64,000 bases of DNA from Rhea pennata. Taxonomy: Eukaryota; Chordata; Aves; Rheiformes; Rheidae. This document shows positions 21,737 through 54,370 of the stretch, piece by piece; position 1 is the stretch's first letter, and each line of letters begins with the position of its first letter. The notes beneath the pieces are model-generated. The model saw only the letters and a program-made list of their open reading frames with translations. It searched no databases and was not told the origin of the DNA. The stretch spans positions 11,503,383 through 11,567,382 of the forward strand of contig NC_084670.1 of NCBI RefSeq assembly GCF_028389875.1. The letters run 5' to 3'. Position numbers and translations under genes: made by a program.

Positions 21737-24700
21737 TCAGCTGCGCTTGTTCATGTGGCGGGAGTGAGCGTGCACGGCCTCCACGAAGGCACCCACGTGC
21801 TCGGGGCTCATATCAGGGTAAAGGCCGTGGCCCAGGTTGGCGATGTAGCGTTGGGTCCCAAAACCCTCCAGCATCTTCTTCACCAGCTCCCCAATCTTCT
21901 CCTGCAGGCATGGTGGGAAACCACTTGTCAGCCCCATCCAGCCTGGGGTATCCAGTTTCCCACTCGTCCCCATCCAGCCTGGGATACTTGGATCCCCATG
22001 CCAAAGGGTAGGGCACACACAGTAGCACAGGCTTAGTCCTGCTGGGGACAGGAGCCAATTTTCCAGGTGGGGAAACTGAACCAAGGAGGCTTTTAACCCA
22101 GGCCAAAACTAGCCCCTGTTGCTGGCCACAGCCATCGCTTACCTTGGGCGCATAGAGGGCACACGGGTCCAGGTTCCCTTGCAGGGTGACGTCTTTGCCT
22201 ATCTGCGCACTGGAGTGGAGAGGAAGCAGGTGAGCAGATGCATGTGGCTCAGAGAGCAGGGGCAGCTGGGTGCTACTCCAGCCCCTACTACAGGGCACTT
22301 GGGACACCTCAGTGCAGCCCCTGGTTGCTGTTAGCTCCATGTAGTGCTAGAGCCGGGCTCTCTCCACCCCAGGCCAGAAATTCCCAGGCCTGTGATGGCT
22401 CAAGGCAGAGGAAGGGGCTGGGACACTCATCCTGAGGTGCGGCATGGGCATATGAGTGCTGTGCCAGATTCCTACCGAGCTTCCTGTGGCCGTATAGTCC
22501 AGTCAAGACCGATCACCTCGTAACCAGCACAGGCCAGGTCCCCCAACGCGTAGTGTGCGTCCTTCGCGAAAACAATCTGGGGAGAGAGGAGACGAGCAGT
22601 GACTCTGCTCCGGGCCAGGCCCCTCTCCATGAGCTGGAACAATGGGGGACAGTGCGGAGGATACAAGCGGTACCAGGAGCTGCAAGGAGGGATGTTGTCA
22701 TGCTCCTGCTCCCGTAGCAGGTTGGGGGAGCAATGCCTGTACAGGTGGCACATGCCCAGTGCAGAGCACCCATGTTGGGCTGGTGAGGGCTGAGTGAAGA
22801 CACCAACTCTGGAGCTAGGAGGGTAGCTCAGGGTCCTGCTCAAGGGTGGGCAGGACCCTGCAGCAAGGAGTTCCCAGACACCATCTGCACTGATTTCTTG
22901 CCTGTTCTTACACCCCTTCCTACTGCTAGGGCAAGGAGCTGGCCATGCTACTCCTCCTCCTCCTCACAAGCCCCCAGGCAACAGGACTACCCCAGGCAGC
23001 CCTGGACTCACCATGGGCACTAGAGGTAGTGCCTCAGCCTTCAGCTTGCTCTTCACGCCACGGGCGATGTCTTGGATGTAGGGTAGGGCAAAGTCCTGGA
23101 ATTGCTCTGGGCCCAGGTGCCCCGCGTGTGATTCAAACAGTTGAAGCGCCTGTCAGAGATGTGGGGCTGGGAGAACCAAGGGCACCATGCACCCCAGTCC
23201 TTCCTCCTTCTCCTCCTCCCAGCTGCTGGACCTCCTCCCAGCCCCACTCTTTGTCCCTAGTCTCTGACCTCCTGCCTGGACTCAGCCCTGGGACACACCT
23301 GTGCTCCAGCAGCCACCTGCCCCACTAAGTAGTCGGTGATGACATCTGTCAGCAGCCGCAGCAGTCGGTGGCTTGCATCAGGATGATGATAGAGCCATCT
23401 CTTGGCCTTTGCCATTGTAGTGGAGCCACCACCTTCAATCATATAGGACATGAGCGTCCACTGCAAGAAGCAGAGGAGAAGACAAAGAGAGAGATGAAAG
23501 ATGTGAGGCATCAGCCATGGGATCAGTGCTGAAGGCAGGGCTTGTGAGTGCCCTAGGACTTGAGGCTCATCTGCTCCTACATCAAAAATCACCCTGCTTT
23601 ACACAGGATAAATTACACTACTGAAGCCAATCCTGCCAGAAGCGGGCAGCTCTAGGGGAAGAGCCCAGAGGAAGGAGTAGGGAAGACTATGCCCACTTCC
23701 CGGAGCCCCATCACTTACAGGTGCCCCAGAGAAGCCAATGAGGGGCACCTTGCCCTCCAGGCTGTGCCGTGTCAGTGTGATGGCCTGAAAGACGTAGTCC
23801 AGTTCTGCAGTCACATCCACCTTCTGCCTCAGTTTCAGTAGATCCTCCACTTCCTTCAGGGGCTCCGGGAAAGTGGGTCCTTTGCCAGGTGCCATGACAA
23901 CATCCATGCCTAGTGCCTGGGGATGGAGGAGAGAGGAAGAAGCAGAAATGGGTAGTTCTGGACCAGCCCCTTTCCTACCCACTGCTTCCCACTACCAGCC
24001 ACAGCACTCACCTGGGGCACCACCAGAATGTCAGAAAAGATAATAGCAGCATCCAAGGGGAATCGTCTGAGTGGCTGCAGAAGGCAGAGCAGAAGAAGCA
24101 GTGTGAGGGACCCAGGTCCCTTCCCCACAGAGGGCTCAGACATGCACACAGCCACCCCGAGCAATGGGGTCCTTGAGGTGTGTCAGAAATCTGCCTGGTT
24201 AAAGGTGGTTGTACAGCCCATGCCACCCTGTCCCATCTCAGTGGGTTGCTTGGTGGCTGTTAATCGGTCCCTGAGCTAGGCTTTGGGCTGCAAAATATCC
24301 TGGGAGATGCAGCCGCTCAGGGTAAACGGTAGACCTAAGGGACAGGGAGAAAACCTGTCCCAGCCTGGGAGAAGCGAGGGGACACACAGACCTCCCCAAA
24401 GGTCTGCTCACCTGAAGCGTCAACTCACAGCACACCTTGGGACTCCGGCACGTGGTAAAGAAATCTTGTGCAGCTCGAGTCTCCCGAAACTCTGCAAGAA
24501 ACACGCATGAGTGCGACAGGGTGCACATGGGGCAGCACCAGCTCTGTTCTGCTGCCCAAGCAGCACCCGTTCGTTTGCTCACCAGGCAGGTAGCGCCCGG
24601 CTTGCCGCATGCACCACACCGGCGTGTACTCTGTCTCCTCGCCACGAGCTGCTCGCAGGAATGTGTCATTCTTCAGCCTGGGGAAGTCCTTGGGGCTAAG

Positions 24701-26010
24701 CCAGGAAGGAGCAGAGACAGGCTGTCACCAGAGAGAAAAGGGCGCCGCTTCCCCCCGTTGGAGAGGGAGACCACGCAGGCAGGACAGGCTGGGAGGGTGA
24801 TGACTTGCACAGGGCCAGTAACTTGCCTCTTGCAATGGCATCACTAGCACCAGCTTCTTGCCTCAGTTTCCCAGCAGGACAGGGGGCTACAAGAGACCCC
24901 TTAGCGCTGCCAGGGGTGAAGGGCACCTTGGAGAAGGGAGACGGGTGCGTTCCCCTGCTCGTGGCCAGGCAGGCCGGAGGGTGAGCAGAGCCAGGCTGGT
25001 CCCCAAGCACCAGACCCCCGCAGGCCTGGGGCTGCGGCACTCGCTGCGCTGTGTGGGGCCCTGCCAGGTCTCCGGGGACCCACCGGGGCGGTGCTGATCC
25101 AGGGCACAGCTCCCGGGAGCTCGCCCCAAGGTGGCCCACTCCGGATCCCGAGGACGGGGCCAGCGCAGGAGGCCTCCGGGGGACAGGCGGTGCCTTGCCC
25201 AGGGCCCGGCGAGATTAAGTTATCAGCAGCAGCAGTTGCTCCCGCCTGGAGAGACTCGGGGCCAGCAGGACCCCGGGTGGCCGTGGCGTGAGGGGTCCCC
25301 GCGCCTATCTCGGCCGCGCAGGCCTGGGCCGGCGGCACGGGGCTGAGCCCCCGCGGGCTCGGTGCAGGTGCCACTATGGAGCGGGCGAGCCCGCGCTTGC
25401 GCTACCGCGGCGGCCTCCGCTCCCCGGGCAGCCGGGCGGCCCGGACGCTTCCCAGCGGACTTACGGCGCGGGGTGGCAGACCAGTATCCCCAGTGACCCA
25501 TCCCGGTGCGGCACCAGTGTCCCCAGTGACTCATCCTAGTGTGGCACCGGTGTCGCCAGGGCCTCACCAGTGCCCCCAGTAACCCATCCCAGGGCCGCAC
25601 CAGTGTCCCCAGTAACCCATCCCAGTGTGGCACTGGTGTCGCCAGGGCCTCACCAGTGCCCCCAGTAACCCATCCCAGTGAGGCACCAGTGTCCCCAGGG
25701 CCTCACCAGTGTCCCCAATAACCCATCCCAGTGCGGCACCAGTGTCCCCAGGGCCTCACCAGTGCCCCCAGTGACCCATCCCAGTGAGGCACCAGTGTCC
25801 CCAGGGCCACATCAGTGTCCCCAGTGCAGGGCCCCAGGGCCGCACCAGTGTCTCCAGTCTCGCAGCCACGTCCCCAGTAGTGCACCGGTGCCACACCAGC
25901 GTCCCCAGCGCGGGCCCCCCGTGTGGCGATGCGGGCACAGGGGAGGCGGCCGCACGCGATCCTGCCGCCCCGGGCCCAGGTACTCACACGAGCCGCTCGC
26001 TGCCCTCCAT
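21737..26010 (-). CDS. UROD: Uroporphyrinogen decarboxylase, complete
   Basis: Cytosolic haem-pathway enzyme that removes the four acetate carboxyls of uroporphyrinogen III to give coproporphyrinogen III. Exons in transcript order: 26010-25988, 24695-24583, 24491-24412, 24075-24013, 23916-23719, 23460-23299, 23149-23012, 22576-22476, 22209-22143, 21901-21737. Together they give 1110 bases and 369 residues (human 367). The start MEGSERL is the only ATG that fits; exon 1 encodes only seven residues and part of the next. Active-site residues are all present: Arg38 and Arg42 in MRQAGRYLP, Asp87 in [11 protein letters not shown], Tyr165 in SYMIEGGGS, Ser220 in [10 protein letters not shown] and His340 in [10 protein letters not shown]. 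The enzyme works as a homodimer, with no signal peptide. It shares a divergent promoter with HECTD3. No damage was seen. Confidence 0.97.
24696..25987 (-). other. UROD: UROD intron 1
   Basis: First intron of UROD, very GC-rich and partly CpG island. Its promoter-proximal half is a minisatellite (25480-25912, listed separately). Long open frames on both strands here come from the repeat and have no family resemblance. Confidence 0.7.
25480..25912. repeat. Minisatellite with 53-bp period in UROD intron 1
   Basis: Tandem array with a composite unit of 53 bases made of two related halves: one carries CCAGTAACCCATCCCAGTG, the other CACCAGTGTCCCCAGGGCC. The middle (about 25560-25800) is the most regular; both ends are degenerate. 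It contains no exon. It lies about 80-530 bases inside the UROD gene from its promoter, so copy-number change could affect promoter spacing or first-intron splicing; this last point is inference. Confidence 0.9.
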
Positions 26011-26250
26011 CCTCCCGCACGCCGCTGCGCAGTCCGCCTCCGCCCGCCCCGCCCCGCCCCGTGGGCGCCGCCATCTTGTCTAGTCCCGCCCCTCCGTACG
26101 CGACACGGGCGCCGCCATCTTGCCCTGCCCGTGCCCCGCGGGCGCCGCCATCTTGCCCGGGCAGCGGGCGGGGTTTGCCGTAAACCCGCGAGTAGTGACC
26201 TCCGGTGCTGGGCTCGGCCGCCGGCGGCACCGGGCCGGCGCGGGAGCGCG
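26011..26250. promoter_or_regulatory. Divergent UROD/HECTD3 CpG promoter with three YY1-type sites
   Basis: Only 240 bases separate the UROD and HECTD3 start codons, which point away from each other, as in human. The interval is CpG-rich without a TATA box. The 16-mer GGGCGCCGCCATCTTG occurs three times, at 26063-26078, 26107-26122 and 26140-26155; each contains the YY1 core GCCGCCATCTT. GC boxes (CCGCCCCGCCCCGCC) lie at about 26043-26060. YY1 sites near start sites are typical of housekeeping promoters. Transcription starts cannot be fixed from sequence. Confidence 0.8.
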
Positions 26251-37806
<11,556 letters not shown>

Positions 37807-37895
37807 TGTTGTAGCCTACCAAGCAGCATGGACAATCATTCAACAAAACCATGCAATGGGAAGAGCCCCCTTTCACCCCCAGGATGTGTATATAT

Positions 37896-37901
37896 AATAA
37901 A
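37896..37901 (+). promoter_or_regulatory. HECTD3: HECTD3 poly(A) signal
   Basis: AATAAA 90 bases after the HECTD3 stop codon, followed by a GT-rich stretch. It gives a short 3' UTR of about 110 bases. Confidence 0.8.
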
Positions 37902-37919
37902 TGTCTAGGTATGAAGCCT

Positions 37920-40900
37920 GGCTCCCTGCAGTGCTAAGCAGCACTGCTTTGGACACAGAGGTTTGGGACTTTGGCAGGGTGGGAGCTAGCTCAGAAAGTA
38001 AATGTGATTGCAGGAATGAAACCTTGTCCCCAGCCATGGAATATCAGAAAGGTCTGGTAGGTTTTTGTAGTGAGTTTTTTCTCCAGATGTCCTGACTGCA
38101 TCTCATAACTCACTCCTACCCTTCCAAGGCAGTGCTCTGCTCCAAGTAGAGATGGGGTAGGGCCATGAAGGTTATGGTACAGGATGGAGAACTTTGTGAG
38201 GTGCTGCTGAGACCATGGGGATGCTCAAAGATGCTTGCTGTGTCCTAGCCCAAGTGTTCTGACCACATTCCCTTGTCTCATTCCTACTTCCACATGAGAA
38301 CATATAAATGAGATCATTCATCTGGATTTAAAAAGAAATGGGGCAGACTGGTGGTAGGTGCTGCAGGGGTGCCTCTGGCCACCAGGTGTCATGACAGACC
38401 TGTATGCCAGGGAACAGCAGGACTGTGGGTGCTGTCAGGACAGGACTCTTGTACTCTTACATCTCACCAAATCCCAGTTACCTGCACCTGTGGTTCCCTG
38501 CACCCAAGCACTGCAGAGGCTGCTGGGGACCTGCTTCCCTGCAGGAGATGGAAGTTGTCTGCTTCCCTCCTGCTCTGTAGTCTCACTGTGAATGCAGCAG
38601 GGCATGCTGGTGGCGTAGTAGTCATTCTCTCAGGCTCTTCAAGCCTTGGTTTTCCTCTCAAAGGCTGTGTTACAGTTAATGTGCTGCAGTTCTTGCAGAG
38701 ATATGCAGGGAGGGCCAAGCTCTTCTCCCCGACAGTGGGAGTTAGAGCAGCAGCAGGCATTGGAGTGCCAGGCTCTGTTCTCTTCTGCCGTGGGGAGGGA
38801 AGTGGAGGTCTCCAGCACAGCAGGCTAGTCCTTGCCCCAGGGCAGCAGGAGGACTGCAGACAGCAGATGTTGGAGCTCCTCAAGCACATGACGCAGTAGT
38901 AGGTCAGTGTGTGATGGAGGTGATGAAAGCTTTACAATGTCAAGACTGTACAAAATGTTATTTCACCTTCCCAGCCCTGAGCAGGATAGCAGCCTACCAC
39001 GCATGAGCTACCAGATGTCAGTTTGCTTTTATACCCCCTCCCACAGCGGTATTGTCAGTCTCTGAGGTCTGCTGGGCCGTTATTACTACAGAGGCACTGA
39101 GCCACCATTGCTGGAGTGGGGCTGATGCTGAGACTTAGAACTTGCTCTGTGCCTAACACCTCATGTCTTTTCCTCCCTGTTGAAGAAACCTGTTATCCAG
39201 AAACTGCTTCTAGTCCTAAATGAAGTCTGTCCCTTTACCTGTTTCCTTTGAAACTGCTGTATTCCCAGAGCTGCTGAGAGGAGTTGTACTGAAAGGACTG
39301 TAGGATCAGGAGAGGGTGTATGCTGAGGTTTCCCGCATCGCAGTGAGCAGGAGTCTAGGGTGAGCAAGGGTATTGTTTCTGGTAGCTTTTGCCTGCAGCA
39401 GAGCCTTCCACACTCAGTTTGATGGGTGTGAAGTCCTATCTGCTGCTGGGGGCTTTTTTTGGAGCATGATGTGTTATCTCAGAATTGGGCTCTGCAACTC
39501 TGTGGCTGACTTCAGTGTCCAGTATAGAGAGGAGCAGGGCCTCTGCATGATAACTTTCCACAGTGGAGGCTGAGTCATTTGCTAGACAGTTTATTTTAAA
39601 TGGACAGGAGTGAGCTGGTGAAAGAGTTTTGATCCTCTGGCTTGGCCTTGGGCAGGAGTATTGAAAATTTTCTCTTCAGACCAAGTTGGGGAGCCCAGAG
39701 AGCAGCTGGATGAGATGGGATTTGAAATGGGCTTGTAGATCCCTTCTGGCTGCTGCTGTTTGGGTAGAATGGATCTTGCTTTTTCCAACCTTGTCTATTT
39801 CTAAGGGACATGATGTTGTTTATTTACTGAGCAGAACTAGAAACAGCAAGAAAAAATAGATTTTTTTTTTTACAGCATTGTACACAGTGCTTTTAGTGTA
39901 GATCTCAAAGCCACAGATGTGTTCTATTGGCTGGGCAGCAGGTGGCTAGCTGTCTAAGATGGTTTGATAGTACTGACAGGTTGTTGGGTTGCTCAGGGTG
40001 ATGTCCAGGCTGAGGAAAGGCACTGACTGCAGTGAGAGTTCACCGCGTTGGTGTCTCTGGAGCAGGGTGGCTGAGGTGTCGAGCTGATGTGGCTGGGCAG
40101 CAATGGATGTGAGCCTTTCCCCAGAAATGTTTTAGCATCTTCATCATTGGAGATGCTCAAAACTTGGCTACTTGTGGCTCTGAACAACTTGATCTGACTT
40201 CCAGTTTCACTCTGCTAACTTCACCTCTGGGTCCTCCCAGTATTTTATGACTGTTATTACTCTGGCCTCCCTCCTTGCAGATCTTGTACTTTGTCCTTTC
40301 TTGCTCTTCCCACTAGTAAGGGCTTTTAGCCCCCAACCTTCTCCAGTTGTTGGGTTTATTTCCTGCCACTGAGAAAACACTGCTGCTGAGGCTTCCTAGA
40401 TTTGAGTGCCAGGGCTCCGGTGAATGGGACCTAGCTGGTGAGGGTGGTGACTTTTGATTTTAAAAAACACTAGTCATTACAGGAGCCTGGGCCTAGTAGG
40501 CGGGTTGCATCTGGAGACTCATCTAGTGCATTTTGGGTTTTATCCCTTACAAACATATTGACAACATTGTTTTATCATATAGTTTGGACCACTCTGCATT
40601 ATGGCAATGTGTGTGTTGGAGAATGGCAACAGCATCTGCCATAGTGCTGTTTGGGGGTGCAGAGACATGTGAAAGTCTTACCTCAATGCAGTGGTCAGCT
40701 TGTCCTGTAACTGGAATTGGCTGCAGTCAGTGTGTGGTCAGAGGGTATCTGGGCAAGTGTGGCTGCTGCTGAGCAAGGACTCCAAAATAGCCTACAGATG
40801 GCACTTAGTTTGCAGTGCAAAGGTGAACTGGGGACAGGGAGCTGGTAACCTGCCTGGATTTCCTCTATGCAGTGCCATGTCTTGTATATAGTGATTTAAA

Positions 40901-42930
40901 GCCAACTGCAAATTGAATTTCTGATGTGATAACACAGTGAATTGTGGAAAAGATCACCCTGGCTCAGCTCCAGCCAGTCTCAGGAGGCAGAAGTGTAGGT
41001 GTTATTTTGATACCAGGTCACGTTTCTCCTGTGATCTCTAAAGTTGTGGGTAGTGGCTGTTGCCTGTCATGGTTGACTTTACACAAGTTAGTTGTGACTC
41101 TGCCCTGCCTGGAAATTTTGCTGTGCCGTTGCGCAGCAAAGGGATGGGAGAGCCTTTGAGGGCAGCACAGGGAGCAGTAAGCTACAAACCGAAGGCTCTG
41201 CTCTGCTCTATTCCTGAATCTCAGGTAGGTATGAGATCAAATTTTAAGCGAGTGACACCCTGAGAAAGGTGCTCATGCCGATGTGCTTAGATGAGGCAGA
41301 GCTGCAAAAGAGAGGTGTCCGTGCGCGGGCAGAGCTGCCAGCAACGTGGGAGGATGAGGAAGGAGAAAGTTGGCACCTTCAGGGTGTGTATGGCTGCAAG
41401 AGGAGCTGGGGATGGGATTAATGCTGTTACAGCTCACTGTAACTGCTCGCTGTACCTCTCCTGATTTTCAGCTTGCTGAATTGTCATAGAATCGCTTCAG
41501 GTTATTAATACGCACATGTAGACTAGCTGTTCATTATTCCACTAATAATTAATAATTAATACCTTGGAGTATTAAAAGTTACAAATAGGTTGACAGGATC
41601 TGAATGTCCCTACCTCATGTAGGATCTAAAATAAAATGAACTAACTATTCTCGGCATTTTTCATTTCTTTTATCTGGTGGGGCTGGGAATTCTGCACACT
41701 CCCATCATGATAAACAGCACCAGAGACTGATGATGCATGAGGCAATTGAAGGTGAAGCAGCAGAAGTTGTCTCCCATGCTACTGCACAAACTGATGACAC
41801 CGAGGGGGCACAGCCCTTTGTGGCGTTCTGCAGCCAGCTTTATGGGGTGACACATGCTGGCCAGGGAGGGAGGGTGTCACTTATTCTTACAGGCCTGGAG
41901 CCACAGCTCTAGTTCCATGATTAGCGCCTCAGGCTTGGTTTGTTAGGGTTAAGTTCCTGCCAGGAGGAAATGATCTTTCAATACCTCCAGGAGACCACCA
42001 ACCAGGGACCCAGAGGTCCTGCTCAGAGCCATCCTGGGGGGAAAAAAGACTTTGGGTGTGGAGCCTGGGTCACACCGCCCACTCGCCTCCCTGGGCAGCT
42101 GGGGCAAAAAGATGCTCTTTTGCTAAGCCCTGACCTCCACGCAGTGGGCTCCAGGCCTGCGGAGGGTCACGCACCTGCAGCCCATGAGATGTCCCCATCT
42201 GTGGCAGGGCCTTGGGAAGCTGCTTTTCCTGCTGTAGCAATCCCATACGTAATCATAGCCCCTGCCCAGGGACAGGGGCACACCAGTAAGGCAGAGCTGG
42301 GCAGGACCAGCACTGTCAGCCCACAGAGCAGGGAGGATTGCCCAGCTGTCCTGGTTGATGGGAGAGACTTGCTGTGCTTGGGAAGACCCCGTTCAATAAC
42401 CCTGCAGGGGGGACAGCCCAGCTCCCTGGGGCACTGTCAGCTCGCTCTCTGCACTGTACCTTTGCAAGTAGGGATGGGCCTGGACTATGACCTGCCGTGA
42501 GAGCAGGCAGGCGCCAGAAGGGTGCTTGGACCTTTGAGCTCAGCCAGGCTGGTTGTTTGCTGCTCCTGCTCCCTACACGCTGCTCTCTGTGCTTGACCCA
42601 GAGAAATGCAAATATTGCAGGGTGGAGCTCAGCCGGACTCTGCCACCGCCTCGCAACGGTATGTGACGGGCAGCTGTGACACGATGCACTGCTTGGGTGC
42701 TGCTGGGATGCCACGGCTGCATGGGTTAAAGCTGCCTCTGGGCAGGGAGGCCGGTCCTCCTCCCTGACGGGCATGCTCGGAGCCTCCCCAGCCCACAGCA
42801 CTGTGCCTGGGGCAGGAATAGGCCTCTGGGCAGCCCAGGCCCAGCTTTCCCACAGCAGCATGCCAGCCCCTAGGCCCCCCCGCCCCGTTCCCTTCTCTTC
42901 CTTATCCTGTGCCTAGGGGGTGCCCTGAGC
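37920..42930. other. Spacer between the two HECTD3 genes
   Basis: About 5 kb with no recognised exon on either strand. It contains a CR1-like fragment near 40105-40205 and an AT-rich patch at 41500-41660. Open frames such as 41940-42500 (+) show no family resemblance. No leftover piece of UROD or of HECTD3 was recognised here, so the duplicated unit appears to have been HECTD3 alone or its flanks have decayed. Confidence 0.6.
40105..40205 (+). mobile_element. CR1-like LINE fragment, very decayed
   Basis: Contains TTGGAGATGCTCAAAACTTGG, then GAACAACTTGATCTGAC, which resembles the stretch near the 3' end of avian and reptilian CR1 (a 'ggagatattcaaaac' block followed by a 'ggcaacctgctct'-like block). 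The call is from memory of the consensus and is weak. Confidence 0.4.
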
Positions 42931-43175
42931 CCACGGTGGCCGCTTTGCCGAGCCCCGGTGGTGCCGAGCTCCCCCTCTGCTCGTAGGGGTGCAGGCAGGG
43001 ACGGGAGGGTCGGGGGCTGCTGCGGCCGGGCAACCCCCGCCCCGGGGCGGGCACGGGAGCTCCGGGCCGGGCGCGGCGGGAGGCGGAGCCGGGGGCGGTG
43101 GCACCGCCGGGGGCGCAGCGGAGCGGAGCGGCGGCGGCGGCGGCGGCGGCGGCACCGGGCCGGCGCGGGAGCGCG
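42930..43175 (+). promoter_or_regulatory. CpG-rich putative promoter of HECTD3-like gene
   Basis: CpG-rich sequence just upstream of the second HECTD3 start codon, with GC boxes (CCCCGCCCCGGGGCGGGC at about 43038-43055, GGGGGCGG at 43091-43098) and a CGG run at 43130-43153. No TATA box and no YY1-type GCCGCCATCTT site were seen, unlike the promoter of copy 1. There is no divergent gene on its other side. Start sites are unknown. Confidence 0.55.
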
Positions 43176-46100
43176 ATGCGCGCGGGCGGGGAGGCGCCGC
43201 ACCAGGTGCTGGGCCGGCTGCGGTTCCTGCTGCAGTGCAGCGAGTGCTTCCGCCGCGCCCGGGCGCTGCCCGCCGCGCTCTGCTACGTGCCGCGGGAGGT
43301 GCAGTACAAGATCTGCAAGGACCCCGCGGCCGCCGCCGCCGCGGCCGCCGCCCGCAGCCTGCTCAGCGTCTGGGACAGCCCGGGGCCGGCGCGGGGCGGC
43401 AAGCGGGCGGCGCGGGCCACCATCGAGGTGCGGAAGGGCGGCTGCCTCCGCGCCACCGGCGAGGAGTACTGCAACGGCGCCGGGCTCTGGGTGAAGCTCA
43501 GCAAGGTAACGGCACCGGCACCGGCACCGGCACCGGCACCGGCGGGGCCCCGCCGCCCCCCATCGCCGCACCCGCCGCTCGTGCGGATCCGCGCAGGCTG
43601 CGCGGCTCCCGCGGCTCGCGCTGTCACCCCGCTCTAAAGAGCCGCCCAAAGCCTTTGCCCCGGCCGAGCGGGGCCCGGGCTCGTGACCGGCGGTGCGGGA
43701 GGGCGACGCCGAGCAGCAGAGCAGCGCAAGGGGCTCCTGCGGGGCACAGCGCGGCTGGGCGAGCGGGAGCGAGGGATAGGTTTTACTGGGGAAGGAGGGA
43801 GCTGGGTTGCTTAGAGGCACACGAGGTGGATTCGTCCTCTGTTGCTTCTTCAGGTCTTACTGTTTCCCAGAAGTTGAACCTGGCTGTTCTGGGCTGGGTG
43901 ACATCTGGGTGTCGCTACACAGTTGTCACATTTCCTCAGGACCTTGAAATCAGTGGTCCCAGGACCCTTTTGTGTCACGAAGGGGCTCAGCTTGCTAATA
44001 ATCTTCCTGCAGCACCCAAGAGGGACAAGCCCCAGGGATGCTGCAGGGAGCTGGTTTGGGGTCCAGACAGTTGTGACAAGTCCGGATGTGATTTCAGGAG
44101 CAGCTAGAAGAGCACAAGGGCTGCCATGACCTGGAAGAGGGCTGGCTCCTGGCACAGAGATTTGGAGAGGGAGGAGATAAGCTGGTCCCAGTTGAGTCTG
44201 TGGAGAGGATCCAATGGCAGCAGCAAATGTTCGGGGTTGATTATAAACCTGCGGTCAGGTAGGGCCCGAATGCGCTGCCTGGCACTCCCAGCCAGGGGAC
44301 AGCGATGTGTGTGTTGCTGAGTTGCGTGTGACTGATGCCCTACAGAGGACATGTGGCCCAGCTCTCCCAACTCTTTTGGGCATGCCGAGCACAGCCCCAC
44401 TGACCCCCTTTGGCACAGGTGAGACAAATGTCCCTGCCAAAGAACCTATGTGCAGGATGGTGCCACCTCTTAGGCTACCTGTGCTTGCTTCTGGCAGTGC
44501 CTATGGAAGAGAGACATCAGGGTGGTTCAGCACCACTCAGATTTGGGCTGAGCATCTGGCACCTGGATGCTGCACCCCCTGGCCCTGTACTGCTGCTGCC
44601 TTAAAGGCTAAGTTGGCAATTGCTGGGGCATGCTGAGCTCTGACCCATCTTTTCACCTACATAATTCCTCTGCCGGGGCTGTTCCAGCTGGGAGCAAGTG
44701 GTGGATCTGACATACTCCATGCGGCTCGGAGGGAAACCCAGGCTTGTGGAGCAGGATGAGGCTGCAGTGCAGAAGTTTCGGTACGAGCCCATCTCCTGGA
44801 GCAGTCCTGCGGCAGGGTGGGGGTCTGGAGCGGGGGCTGGTCGCCATTTGATGAAGACAGCCTTTGCTCCACGTGCCAACGGGTCACTTGCGTTGCACTA
44901 TTTCCACTGGGCCGGGGCGGCCATAAATTCTACTGGGCCAGGGTGGCCATAAATACCCAGTGCGGTGGCAGCAATACAGCTGTGTCCCGATTTGGTGACT
45001 GTGGGATGCTGGGGCCTTCCCGATAGGGGGGTGCCCAGATCATCTAGGGCTAATGGACAGGCTGGGAGCTGGCTGGCAGGTCTGGGGTGCAGATTGGTCG
45101 CCCTTGGCCCATTAACCCTGAGCCTGCCTGCAGGTCCCTGCCACCGTCCTGGAGCTATGAGTGTGACACGGAGCTGGCGCGCTTCCTCTATGATCGCAGA
45201 GAGAGGGAGCTGGAGAGACTTGACTGCATCAAGGAACACATCAACAGCCTCGAGGTTTCCTCGGTGCGTAATAGGGCTGGACCAGCCTGCGCAGGAGAAG
45301 GAGCAAGCTGGGCTGGGCAACTCTGGGAAGCCCCAGAAATGGGAGGAGTAATGACTTTACTAAACTTCCTCCTCACAAGGGGAGGAGGGAACTGGAAGGC
45401 CTCCAGGCATCAGCTCTCCTCTGCCCTTGGGTAGGGAAGAGGCTTTGTTCATGGCACATCTCCTGGTCTCTGGGGGGGGGGGGGGAGCTGGAGGTATCAT
45501 GGTATGCCTGGCATGTGCTGGCAAAAATTAGCATGAGTTGCAGCACATGGCACACATGAGTCTCATCGCAGCTCAGAGAAGGTGTAGCCGGTGGTACCTG
45601 GTGCCTCCATGAGGAACAGGGGCTGGGGTTTTAACAAAGCTGGTGTGAGTTGGGCAAAACCCTACTGCATCTCATTGGCACTCTCCAACCCCCGAGGGGT
45701 TGGTGGCCACGTCCAGCTTGCTCTGTACAGGAATTGCCGTTCACTAGCAGCCCAGCAGATGCAAGGACTGGCCTGGTCTGACCTCCTCTGGCCTCCTGGA
45801 ATCCCTCCTGGAGGTGGCCCCAGCATGCGCAAGGATGCTCACCCTGCCTCCTTCTGCCCACTGCGCTCTTCCAGGAGGTCTTCAATGCATCCCATCTGAC
45901 GGACGGACGGACAGACACCTTCTGGGAGAGTGATGGGCCCCTGGGGGAGCAGTGGGTGCGGCTCAACATGAAGAAAGGCTCCGTTGTCAAGTGAGACCTA
46001 TGGGTATCCTGTATCTGGCAGGGGTTGTGCTGGAGATGAACAGGGTCTGAGGCCCTTGTTTGCCTTGACTACAGCTCTTTACTTGGGCTCTCTTGGCCAC

Positions 46101-49100
46101 AACCTGGGGCTCAAGGTAGAAGTGGGGGACAGTTGTGTTCCAGGAGGGAGTCTGGTGTGCACAGCCCTGCTGGCAGCTCAGGGGGCATCTCCCAGGTATC
46201 TCCATGCCCAGGAGGCTCAGGACAAAGTTTCTTCTCACTCTTCTCATCTCCAGGAAGCTGTGGCTGGTGCTAGCGTCGCAGGTCACATCCTTCATACCCA
46301 GACGGGTGGCCGTGTATGGTGGGGAACTGAACAGGCTGCATCATCTGCGAAGTGTCTTAATCAGCGAGTGAGTAACAAGAGAGAAGCATCATTGATCCAG
46401 CTTTGACCAAACTCCTAAACTGTACCTGTGTCCAGTGTGGAGGTTTAAGGGAAGTGCTAAGGTAGATCCTGAGCGATCCATCCCTGACATGGGCTCTCAG
46501 CGGGTCTGGGCTCCCTGAGCTGGAGGTTGTATCAGTTGCTGCAAGCGTGATGGACACCCATCCTCTGCACGCTAACCAAGTGCCTTCAACTGTACTTCTG
46601 GTCTGCAAGCTATTTTGTGGCTGCTGGCTGGTGACTTTGGGGGTTCTTCTCCCTCCTTGTTTGTGGGAGCACATACGACTGTCGTTTCTTCTCCGGGCAT
46701 CTCTCTCCACGCTAGAACTAGAGTTCTGGTGCACTTTACCTCCCTCTTTGCTGCACTGTCCCAGGCCGTCTTGGAGCTCTGCAATGCTCTCTTTGAGGCA
46801 GGCACCCAGCCTGCACACACCGCTGTGCACCTGGGGTTTACACAGGGAACTGAAGACCTCCTCTTTGCCCAAAACTGGCCTGCTTGCCCTTTTGCTTGAG
46901 CAGTGAGATTTGTCTTTGAAGAAACATCTGCGAGACCGCTGAGGTCTCTTTTCTGGTTCTTCTCTGGAAGTGACTTCTGCCTTCTTCAGGATGTCTCTGT
47001 TCTTCTGTGCTTCTCCGTTTGCTGCTCTCCTGCTAAAGCCCTCGGTGAGCAGAAAGGCTCATGCGGTGGGGGGCTCAGAGAGTGTTGCAGAGCCCTACTC
47101 TGGGATTTGCTGCTCACTTGCTGCTTAGCTGTGGTCATGTTGCAGAAATACCTTTCCCTCCCCTTCCTGCAGCCCCAGTGGTTTTGGGTAGCCAGGGTGG
47201 AGGCAGGGTGCAGCAGCCTTGGTGGCAGTGCAGAGATGGGAGCAGGCAGAAGGGCAGCATGGCCTGAAGCACGGATGCTGCTGGTGGGAGCCTGTGGATG
47301 CCACTGAGTCTGCTCAGGGCTGTGAGGAGCATCCCTGCCATCTTCCTTTGCCCAGGCGCCCTGCAGCTGGCCCGCTCAGCAGGCTGAGCCATGCGGCTGG
47401 GACAGACGTAGGTGCCACTGTGGATCCAGGAGCATCATCTCGCCTCTAGGGGCGAAAAAGAGGCTCTGTCATCTCCTCTGTGCTATGTGTGCAGGAGCAG
47501 CTTCCATGACGTGTGCATTCTCCGTGACATGAAAACCTACCTGCCGGTCCTGGAGATCCGCTTTCTGGAGTGCCGGGGTGAGCTCGTACGACCAGACCTG
47601 GGGCTGCCAGCCCAGCAGAATCCATGCACCTGTGAGGGCTGCAAGAGGTTTTTGTGGCTTTTCCTGTTCTGCTGGCTGCTGCTTTGGTTCCTTGGGAGAA
47701 GGTCTGGGGATGAGCTCCATTTGGGATGCTGCAAGGCAAAGCTGGAGGTGGCCCCCTGTCCCCTATTGAAACAACCTTCATCCAAGCTGTGCTGGCTGCA
47801 GGTCTGCACCGACATCTTTGTCCTTTCTTGGCAGAGGGCGGGTGCAACGTTCGCCTGCAAGGGATTAAGATCAAGTCCGTCTGGGAGTGGGACATGGTCC
47901 TCAATGCGGACATGTTCCAGCCGGCCAGGCTGGTGCGGTATCCCCTCCTGGAAAGGGTGGAAGCAGACACGTTGTACCGGCGGGCTGTGCTCATTCAGAG
48001 GTACATCATGGGAATGGTTCCTTGCCTGCAGCAAGCCTGGGGCCTGAGGGAGGACCATGCCTGGCCTCTAGCAGGGAATTGCATATGTCTTTCTTGAAGT
48101 CTGCTATCCCCTTTGCCAGCTGGGGCCAGCACGGACCCCACAGCGAGCTCCTTTGCAGCAAGCCAGTCACACCACTGCAGCATGGGCCACATGCTGGAGC
48201 TGCTCTTGATTGCACTTTTTCTTTGGGAGGGGTCCAGATAAAGCACTTGGACAGAGGCTGCTCCTTGGGCACTCCCCATCGCCAGGCCAGGGCCCTTCCA
48301 TGACCTGGAGGGGACCCACGTGTGGCGAGCTTGTGCCCTGGGCCCTGCACTGTGCCAACGCAGGGTGAGGTTCTGCGTATCCCCCAGCCCCATTGCATCC
48401 CCACGCTGCTCCTCTCCGGTCTCCAGGTTCGTCACCCTCCTGGACAGTGTCCTGCATTATCTGATCCCCATCTCGGACCAGAGCATCGGTACCTTCAGCA
48501 TGCTCAGGGTGAGTGTTTGTGGGGCTCTCACCACCTGCTAGCTGGGGATGGCACTGTCAACATGTGCGGCCAGGAGCGTGGCCCCTAACCAGCCCTGCCT
48601 GTCCCTTGGTAGAGCATCAAGCCGTTCCTGCTGCTGTCCAAGCATTGCACAGCCCTCATTGCCCAGTGCCTGCAGGCCTCGCAGAGCCCCGCACCACAAA
48701 CCTCACCAAAGCTGTACCTCAACCGGTACCTGGCCCGGGAGCACCGCGCCAACCCTGCGCTTGACCCCCGCTGCAAGAACGCTGTCTTCACCCAGGTACC
48801 CTCAGCTTGGCTGAGGCGGGCTGCGCACTGTGCGAGGGCACTGGGCAGGGGATGTGTTTGCTGTTTGAGCCATCACTGAGCCTTGCTGCAGCTTGGTCCC
48901 CTTTCCGCTTTGTGCTCCTCTCTAGGTGTATGAAGGCCTCAGAGCTTCAGGCAAGACTGAGCAGCCCATGGATTATAGGTAGGGGCCATGCTGGGATTTC
49001 AAGTCTATGTTTGCGGGGTGTCACTGCCCCGAGTGGGATGTGGGTGCAGGGAGATGCTTGATGCTGCCAACCCCGGGCATCTTCTGCCTGGCTCGGAGGA

Positions 49101-52100
49101 TGCCTGTACATGGGGCTGCCGCTTCCCCACAGGTGGCCCCTGAGCTACAGCCAGTGGTGGGAGTGCGAGTTCATCACAGAGGGCATCGTGGACAACGGTG
49201 AGAGCCCCCTGCTCATCCCGAGGGCTCTTCCAAGGGCACTGGCTCTCCTGCACCTGGTGGAGACCAGACAGAAGCTTGCGGGTGTCACCTGGTGCTGCAG
49301 GGTGCCTACACGGTCCCTGGTGCCTTCTGGGTGGTAGCCCTGCTCTGCGCTGTGGTGGGGACCCTGCATCTGCCCTAACCCTCCACAGCACTGCCACTGC
49401 CCCCCAGCAGGGCAGTCCTGGGACTGCCGGCTGGGCCAGCCCTGGGCTGTGTGTCCAGCTCAGCCCCCCACGCTAACCAGCTGCTCTTCACGTTGCAGGT
49501 GGAGGCTTTCGGGACAGCCTGGCCGATGTGTCGGAGGAGCTGTGTCCCAGCTCGAGCGACGTCGCCGTGCCCCTACCCTTCTTTGTGCGCACATCCAACC
49601 AGGTGCAGCAGGGTAGCACCTGGCATCTGCCTGTCCCAGCCTCAGGGCACCCAAACCTGTTGGTGTTTCTCAGGCCTGCAGCAGCTGGTGCAGTTGAATT
49701 TAGGCTTGGAGAGGTCCTTCAGGCTGGGCTCTCCCTTTTGCAGGGAGCCTTGGGATATGCTCTGGGAAGAAAATTCATCAGAGACTGGTACTGCCTGTGG
49801 GCTTGTCCCTGAGTTGCAATATTTTGGGGCTTTAGTCCTATCCTAATGCTTGCAGGGCTGTCAGTCAGGCTGCTGTTCATGCACCCATCTGATGGAGATC
49901 TCCTGGATGGGTGTAAAAGGGGCAGGAAAGGCAGGCAAGGGGATGGAGTGGGAAGGTCTAAGGGGGAGACTGTGCTAGGCTCGTCCTGGCTGCCTGTGTT
50001 GTGTCTCTGTCTGCAGGTCCTAATCACCTCTCTCCTGCAGGGTAACGGTGCTGATGACACCAGGGACATGTATGTCCCCAACCCCTCCTGCAGGGACTTC
50101 CCCAAGTATGAGTGGATTGGGCAGCTCATGGGAGCAACTTTAAGGGGCAAGGAGTTTCTGGTGAGCCCTGGCAAGGGGGTCTGGTGAGGGTCAGACCTGC
50201 CCCGGATGTTGCAGCCCAGGGGTATTGATCCTCCTGCTGCCACATCCCAACTGGAAGTGTTGCCTGGGGAGAAGACTATGTCATCGGCCAGTGCACCCTG
50301 AAGGAGATGCATGAGAAGGACGTGTGTCTCCACTCCCTCCTGCAGGTCCTGTCTCTGCCAGGCTTGGTGTGGAAACAGCTGGCAGGGGAGGAGGTCAGCT
50401 GGAGCAAGGACTTTGCTGCTGTGGACTCGGAGCTGGTGAGTAGGGATGAGGGCCAGAGCTGGCTGTACGTGCCTGTGGCCTGCTGGTTGCTCTGCAATGA
50501 TAGCTTTTACTTGTTTTCGTTCCAGGTGAAGCTCCTGGAGGTGCTGCAGGCAGTTGACAGGGAGGCCTTTGACTTCATGTTCGGCAGAGAGCTGACCTAC
50601 ACGACGGTGCTAAGTGACCAGCGCGTGATGGAGCTGATCCCCAATGGCAGCAGCACTGTGGTACGCTACGAGGACCGTGAGGAGTTCATTCGCCTGGTGC
50701 AGAAGGCTCGGCTGGAGGAGAGCAAGGAACAGGTAACACTGCCTCCTATGGCTGGCTGGGCTGCAAGGTGGACCTTGCCCCATATGACAGGCTCTCCTGG
50801 TACCTTCATAGTCAGCAGTTGGCCTGGACCCTAGCCGTGGTGTTGGTGGCTGCAGAAACATGTCCCTGGTACCAGTTCCAGCTGGGCAGTCCCTTTGTGC
50901 ATCCTGTGCATGGGCTGACTCCAAGCCCCAGGGCTGATTCTTGGCTCTACCATGAGCCGTGGGCCTTCTCTGGGGTCCCTTAGTGCCTTGCTTCAGTGCT
51001 CTGACCAGCTGCCCCAGGCTCAGACTCACTGCAGCAACGTGGGACCCCTTCTGTGCTCCCCTAGATTGCAGCCATGCGAGCTGGGCTGCTCCGCGTGGTG
51101 CCCCAGGCTGTGCTGGACCTCCTGACCTGGCAGCAGCTGGAGAGGAAGATCTGCGGGGAGCCCGAGATCACAGTGGCCGAGCTGAGGAGGTTCAGTAAGT
51201 GCCAGGGCAGGCTGATGCTGCTCTCTGCTCTGACTGGTGTCTGCAAACCAGGACCCTGCATTTCTTTGCCTGGTTTTGGACAAGGTGCCAGTCTTGCTCA
51301 GGAGTGCCAGGGGCTCCTGGGATCTCACTAAGCAGCCCAAACCTTTCCAAGCAAGCCAAGGGTAACCCTCACTCCTTCCACGTGCATCTGCAGCCCCCGG
51401 CTGCAGAGGAACCCAGGCCATGTTCTGCAAAGAGGGTCTTGGTGGAGGACCGTGGCTGGGGGAGCCAAGGCAGCAGGCAAGGGGAGCTAAAGCCTGCCTG
51501 GCCTCGGGTAGGAGGTGGCCCTGTCTTCTCCAGGAGCAGTGCCCTGGGGCTGCGTGCTCAGCCGGGTGCTGGCAGGTGTCAGATGTTCAGAGTGTGCAGG
51601 GCAGAGGGAGAGCAGCCCGGCCCACGTCCCGAGGGTCCCTTCCTCCCCCACCTCCACTGCCGGGACTCGCGGAGGGGCTGGACGCATCCCGTGTTCACTT
51701 TCCCTTGCTGGGAGTCGCTAACAAAGCTTTGGGGCATTCCTTGTCGCAGTGACGTTTGAGGACTTTCCTCAGGACGACTCCCGTGTCCAGATGTTTTTGG
51801 AGGCGCTCAACAACTTCACCAGGGGTGAGTGACCCCCCAGGCCTTTACTCACTCTGTGTGTGCACCGCCGTGGGGGGGGTGGTGGGTCCAGTAGGATGGA
51901 GTACCACTGCCCTGAGCCCCTGGGAGACTCATCAGAGCCCCTGGGATTCCCTAGGAAGCCGTCCCCGGGACACTGAGACCATGCCGTAGCTGTGCTGTGC
52001 GCTCCTGGGACGCTGCTGCAAGGGCAGTCCCTGCTGCGGTGGCGGGTGGCCGGGGACCCCGCTGGCAGGTTGGGCGTGGAGCTTGCTGGCCCCATCAGGC

Positions 52101-52570
52101 TCTTTTGCCAAGACCTGAGCCCTCTTCTTCCTTTCAGAGGATCTCAGCCGCTTCCTCAAGTTTGTCACTGGCCGGAGCCGCCTCCCGGTTCAGATCACCG
52201 TCTACCCGGACAGGACAAAGTGAGTCTGTCCTGCGCTGGCCTGGGCATCTCAGGGCTCTGCCAGGGACTGGGGCCAAACTGGTTTCTTCTTTCTCCAAAG
52301 CTCCGAAGCAGTGGACCTGATGCCAGAGGCCTCCACCTGCTCCTGCACCTTCTTCTTGCCCACGTACTCCTCGTGAGTGGAACTGGGCTCAGGGCGGGGG
52401 CCACTCGCCCTCCCCGGGGCTGGCACGGGGGTCCCGTCCCCCTCTCGGTGCCCATCGCGGCTGTGCCCCAACCTCTCCTTTCCAGGGCCAAGGCCTGCGA
52501 GGAGCTGCTGCGTTACGCCGTCTACAACTGCGTGTCCATCGACACGGACAAGAACATCTGGGACGAGTGA
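43176..52570 (+). CDS. HECTD3-like tandem paralogue, complete (copy 2)
   Basis: Second HECT E3 ligase gene, head to tail with HECTD3. Exons: 43176-43505, 44098-44258, 44688-44780, 45134-45263, 45875-45990, 46254-46367, 47495-47577, 47835-48000, 48427-48508, 48613-48795, 48926-48978, 49133-49197, 49499-49602, 50041-50160, 50346-50435, 50526-50732, 51065-51194, 51750-51824, 52138-52219, 52301-52372, 52486-52570. Sum 2541 bases, 846 residues; every exon has the same length and phase as in copy 1 except exon 4, six bases shorter. All junctions are AG/GT and the frame is open throughout. Exon 1 is identical to copy 1; the rest is diverged (37 of 53 residues shared in exon 2, 55 of 69 in exon 16). 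The DOC region differs most but keeps [21 protein letters not shown] and [10 protein letters not shown]. Catalytic Cys808 is at 52338-52340 in [11 protein letters not shown], with an extra cysteine two residues on. It looks like an intact gene; its substrates are unknown. Confidence 0.93.
43518..43544. repeat. Hexanucleotide repeat (GGCACC)n in intron 1 of HECTD3-like
   Basis: About five tandem GGCACC-type units just after the exon 1 donor. The matching place in HECTD3 (26585-26600) has about two units. This 18-base difference is the only change found inside the otherwise identical block shared by the two genes. Confidence 0.8.
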
Positions 52571-54157: not shown

Positions 54158-54370
54158 CCTGCAAACTGCCCCCTCTGCAATGCCTCCCTTCACAATCTGC
54201 CCCCTCTGCAATGCCCCCCCAAGCCCTCTGCAAACTGCCCCCCTGCAATGCCTCCCTTCACAATCTGCCCCCTCTGCAATGCCCCCCCAAGCCCTCTGCA
54301 AACTGTCCCCTCTGCAATGCCCCCCCTCACAAGCTGCCCCCCTGCGAGCTGCCCCTCAGCAATGCCCCCC
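54158..54370. repeat. Minisatellite with about 68-bp period upstream of EIF2B3
   Basis: About three degenerate copies of a 68-base C-rich unit built from smaller CTGCAATGCC and CTGCAAACTGCCCC blocks (clearest at 54167-54302). It ends about 270 bases before the likely EIF2B3 first exon. Open frames on both strands across it are produced by the repeat. Confidence 0.85.

Follow-up and report, generated by a model that had tools for sequence, protein, structure and literature searches.

In this study, we analysed a window of the Rhea pennata genome, that is, the whole stretch of 64,000 nucleotides at positions 11,503,383 to 11,567,382 of contig NC_084670.1. The window carries two HECTD3 genes, called copy A and copy B here, which lie in tandem and in the same orientation, with their first exons 17 kb apart and with the same exon structure. 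The UROD gene is the divergent neighbour of copy A.

21767..24673, minus strand: UROD exons, five matches to PF01208
26067..26155, plus strand: three GCCGCCATCTTG motifs, upstream of copy A on the UROD-facing side
26251..37806, plus strand: HECTD3 copy A, 21 coding exons, 848 amino acids, without internal stop
43176..52570, plus strand: HECTD3 copy B, 21 coding exons, 846 amino acids, without internal stop

The 21-exon models of both copies were predicted from mutual homology and splice signals, and in these models GT and AG were found at all 20 junctions of each copy. The STCS motif of the HECT domain, which is presumably the site of the catalytic cysteine, reads STCSST in copy A and STCSCT in copy B, aligned to STCSST in the human protein. 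Both predicted proteins match human HECTD3 (PDB 9r85) across residues 14-864 of the human protein, with residues 6-848 of copy A aligned, and this whole-length match together with the in-frame exons places both predicted genes in HECTD3. Outside exon 1, the identity to human HECTD3 was 629/738 residues (85%) for copy A and 467 of 738 columns (63%) for copy B.

Human UROD and HECTD3 presumably have the same divergent arrangement as UROD and copy A in the window. Therefore, we believe that copy A is the copy at the original place, whereas copy B is derived and fast-evolving. The GCCGCCATCTTG motif, which we take to be YY1-like, is absent from the rest of the window; its three occurrences, all upstream of copy A, indicate that the promoters of the two copies differ. 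The GC-rich region directly upstream of copy A also contains a minisatellite (25480-25857) whose units measure about 53, 86 and 106 bp, and a 68-bp minisatellite of 2.7 copies lies at 54159-54345, about 1.6 kb beyond the coding end of copy B. In copy B, exons 4 and 6 (45134-46367) are unusually diverged, at 44-47% identity to copy A and to human, whereas copy A and human were 89-93% identical there. Part of this region matches APC10/DOC-type domains, and copy B may therefore have an altered binding target.

The first exons of the two genes lie within a shared tract, the features of which are as follows.

26222..26649, plus strand: tract in copy A; 26222-26617 certain, 26641-26649 probable
26251..26580, plus strand: coding exon 1 of HECTD3 copy A, 110 codons
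26618..26640, plus strand: 23 bp of copy A that are absent from copy B, ending in GCCCCC, as does the block itself
43128..43153, plus strand: (GCG)8.7 repeat, the left edge of the tract in copy B; the match stops within the (GCG)n run
43147..43569, plus strand: tract in copy B, 18 extra bp included; 43147-43560 certain, 43561-43569 probable
43176..43505, plus strand: coding exon 1 of HECTD3 copy B, 110 codons, the same as in copy A
43510..43543, plus strand: (CGGCAC)5.7 repeat, three units longer than that of copy A

The original prediction was that 26222-26617 matches 43147-43560 base for base except for 18 bases of GGCACC repeat, and our alignment bears this out. The 396 bp of copy A and the 414 bp of copy B were identical in 396/396 aligned columns with one 18-bp gap, the sole difference inside the block being three additional GGCACC units in copy B. 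BLAST split the block into a match of 379/379 (26222-26600 = 43147-43525) and a match of 33/33 (26585-26617 = 43528-43560), with a 16-base overlap in copy A. The block consists of 29 bp 5' of the ATG, exon 1 with its 330 coding bases, and the beginning of intron 1. All 330 coding bases had also been said to be the same, wobble sites included, and they are (330/330; 26251-26580 in copy A, 43176-43505 in copy B), as are 70/70 fourfold sites. The longest identical run in the codon alignment was 338 nt, a length that 0/5000 codon shuffles reached (shuffle maximum 70). In both genes, exon 1 is joined to exon 2 in phase 0, in frame and with a proper splice site.

At the right edge, the 23 bp found in copy A are followed by 9 matching bases (26641-26649 in copy A, 43561-43569 in copy B), then by a 1-bp indel and 4 matching bases. 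A 9-base continuation was reached in 10/5000 and 7/5000 shuffles in two tests (about 0.2%). The tract thus probably extends slightly further to the right, to about 430 bp, and the 23-bp and 1-bp indels at this edge rest on the 9-bp continuation. The 23 bp seem to have been lost from copy B by deletion between direct repeats. Beyond the tract limits, no convincing alignment of the two copies was obtained in the upstream flanks or the remainder of intron 1. The next homology on the right is the diverged exon 2, past intron 1, and on the left nothing aligns.

The other exons of the two genes are strongly diverged. In exons 2-21, 504/736 residues (68.5%) and 74.8% of bases were identical between copies A and B, with a pS of 0.474, a dS of 0.749 and a dN of 0.211 (pS 0.465 and dS 0.725 for exons 2-20 of the first-pass models). 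Fourfold sites were identical at 142/232 positions outside exon 1, compared with all 70 inside it, so the many silent differences claimed for the remainder of the genes are real. The introns of copies A and B gave no blastn match to each other. It had been proposed that equally similar introns would mean a young duplication. The tandem position, the single orientation and the common exon structure would suit a recent duplication of the entire gene, but the divergence of the other exons and of the introns rules it out.

The longest identical run within exons 2-21 was 40 nt, which was reached in 38/2000 shuffles; this is a weak sign of a second conversion. Exon 16 (35706-35912 in copy A, 50526-50732 in copy B) had an identity of 0.80 between the copies and of 0.78 and 0.70, respectively, to human, with a shared run of 15 residues. 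The likeness of the two copies in this exon is either ancestral or the trace of an older exchange.

Exon 1 of each copy lies in a CpG-rich island. The block has a GC content of 0.80 and a CpG observed/expected ratio of 1.01-1.02 in both copies, whereas the ratio in the gene bodies is 0.22-0.30, and the GC3 of exon 1 is 100% in both copies. A G-quadruplex pattern scan of both islands gave matches near the 396-bp block and none inside it. The GC3 removes many possible differences, and strong selection or GC composition alone might be thought to keep exon 1 unchanged. However, the 70 fourfold sites are made up of 35 C and 35 G, a composition that predicts about half of them matching instead of 70/70 (probability about 1e-21), and the bases of intron 1 inside the block are identical as well. 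The exon 1 protein was identical to human HECTD3 at only 57/105 residues, so it is not highly constrained. Selection or composition alone is ruled out by the fourfold and intron sites.

The original prediction left two causes side by side, gene conversion and an assembly artefact. In the artefact, the GC-rich exon 1 of one copy would be missing or poorly covered and would have been filled with the sequence of the other copy by gap-filling, consensus or polishing. The high GC content of the block and its left edge inside a (GCG)n repeat are in keeping with this, and older assemblies are known to handle GC-rich first exons poorly; the reported cause is mostly their loss from Sanger and Illumina data, and PacBio assemblies recover them (PMC9516821). 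Nevertheless, the two copies are not the same in every base up to the edges, repeats included. The 18-bp repeat change, probably together with the 23-bp and 1-bp indels, is unlike simple copying and argues for two separately read sequences, although misassembly could also change the number of repeat units. The window and the 20 kb flanking it on each side are free of N, the contig is 38.6 Mb long, and in both copies the splice site and the frame are correct before each gene's own exon 2. In a DNA search of the 1.27-Gb assembly, the block was found at these two sites only, along with three partial matches of 36-41 bp on contig C1. This search, which scores the best candidates only and skips very common words, met no third exon 1, and a diverged one could escape it. 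A comparison of the block with a plasmid collection gave no match and is uninformative for animals. Taken together, we consider the artefact unlikely and gene conversion the better fit.

An ectopic duplication or template-switch insertion was also considered, in which exon 1 entered a copy B that lacked its own through microhomology at GC-rich repeats. In favour of it, the edges of the tract lie in GCG and GCCCCC repeats and no alignable homology flanks it on either side. On the other hand, the tract occupies corresponding positions in the two genes, with exon 1 joining exon 2 in phase 0 in each, and copy B would have had to persist for a long time as an open gene without exon 1. A relic or degenerate second exon 1 was sought with tblastn in the whole window at E up to 10; beyond the two exons only weak hits were obtained (E 0.38 or worse). 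This insertion is, in our judgement, highly improbable.

We believe that the shared tract probably arose by interlocus gene conversion, a recent event between old HECTD3 paralogues in tandem that was limited to their GC-rich first exon. Matching wobble and intron sites, restricted to exon 1 in its correct place and frame, are the trace expected of interlocus gene conversion, and here the match includes silent and non-coding sites within otherwise diverged homologues. Interlocus conversion tracts are reported to span 50 to several hundred bp (PMC3924818), and the tract in question measures 396 bp with certainty and probably about 430 bp. We infer conversion as the cause from the sequence of one assembly, and some observations weigh against it. 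Because neither the promoters nor the remainder of intron 1 can be aligned, long homologous arms are lacking around the tract. In zebra finch, the mean allelic conversion tract is given as only 32 bp, with long events rare (PMC12047795).

The course of events may have been as follows. HECTD3 would have been duplicated long ago in this lineage, after which copy A stayed beside UROD and copy B evolved fast. The CpG-rich island at each exon 1 may attract meiotic recombination, as would be expected of birds without PRDM9. Zebra finch, like other birds, is described as lacking PRDM9, and both its crossovers and its non-crossovers concentrate at CpG islands (PMC12047795). A break in one exon 1 would then have been repaired from the other copy 17 kb away, with about 400-430 bp copied. 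This latest event was probably one of a series, through which exon 1 would have stayed alike as divergence went on in the promoters, intron 1 and the remaining exons.

The probable series of events goes beyond the original prediction. Conversion is reported to take place mainly above 80% identity and rarely below it (PMC3924818). Because conversion is poor between diverged sequences, and because the other exons are about 75% identical, a single conversion between such sequences would be hard to start; exon 1 probably never fell that far, and the pattern points to recurrent conversion.

The ages are in line with a recent event in an old pair. No substitution was found in about 157 neutral-like sites of the block (91 synonymous and 66 non-coding), which gives a 95% upper bound of about 3.8-6.4 My on the age of the shared state at 1.5-2.5e-9 substitutions per site per year. 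This rate is our own reading of the zebra finch figures, 5.0e-9 per generation with a generation time of about 2-3 years (PMC12047795), and mutation in a CpG island may run faster or slower. Applied to a dS of 0.73, these rates date the HECTD3 duplication to 146-243 My, which is approximate given the near saturation of silent sites. Of the 736 columns outside exon 1 in an alignment of copy A, copy B and human, 449 were the same in all three, 178 were changed in copy B only and 36 were all different. Copies A and B agreed against human in 55 columns, compared with 18 in which copy B and human agreed against copy A. This favours a duplication after the split from mammals, with the reservation that changes on the human branch also feed the 55.

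The direction of the transfer was approached through the comparison with human. The identity of exon 1 to human is lower than that of the remaining exons of copy A, and so lends no support to copy A as the donor. Exons 2 and 3 of copy A are also low in identity to human (0.63 and 0.61, respectively). With both exon 1 and these neighbouring exons low, the outgroup comparison gives no direction of transfer.

We tentatively suggest a further possibility, that exon 1 has evolved in concert from the duplication onwards, for many tens of My. A CpG-island hotspot would re-copy it again and again, and the similarity so maintained would sustain further conversion, while the sequence outside drifted beyond reach. 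If this is true, the pair has a common N-terminus but separate promoters and separate ligase bodies. If the conversion itself is real, interlocus exchange is restricted here to one coding exon in a CpG island, between paralogues whose divergence makes conversion difficult in any other part, and the pair is a small natural experiment on whether conversion between duplicates is driven by promoter-type hotspots in birds. It would also follow that exon 1 of HECTD3 misleads trees, orthologue calls and read mapping, the last because short exon 1 reads fit both copies equally.

Among the titles and opening lines of abstracts in the open-licence literature, no related account of the HECTD3 pair or its conversion was found. 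Against human HECTD3, both copies match, and copy B stands out as a fast-evolving, tandem extra copy. The event that we propose is of a known kind, with close published precedents, in an unusual place. The globin genes HBB and HBD are less diverged overall than the HECTD3 pair. In primates, four events are reported to have copied parts of HBB onto HBD, and each tract begins in the 5' flank (PMC4390247). Like the HECTD3 genes, HBB and HBD are a linked pair with tracts that run from the 5' flank over exon 1, and the later gene parts are diverged in most of the events (PMC4390247). They differ in their known direction of transfer, with HBB as the donor, and in one tract of the four that extends to exon 3 (PMC4390247); in the HECTD3 pair, the flanks are unalignable. 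For the BEX/WEX/GASP genes, Winter and Ponting proposed recurrent conversion, so that diverged genes still convert (PMC1274310). In that family, the shared part is mainly the 5'UTR, with some coding events, and more than 20 genes in several mammals are involved (PMC1274310), compared with a coding exon, a gene pair and one assembly in this study. Similarly to the HECTD3 pair, the BEX/WEX/GASP genes of placental mammals are described as having a GC-rich 5' exon that is homogenised between linked homologues while the rest of the gene diverges (PMC1274310).
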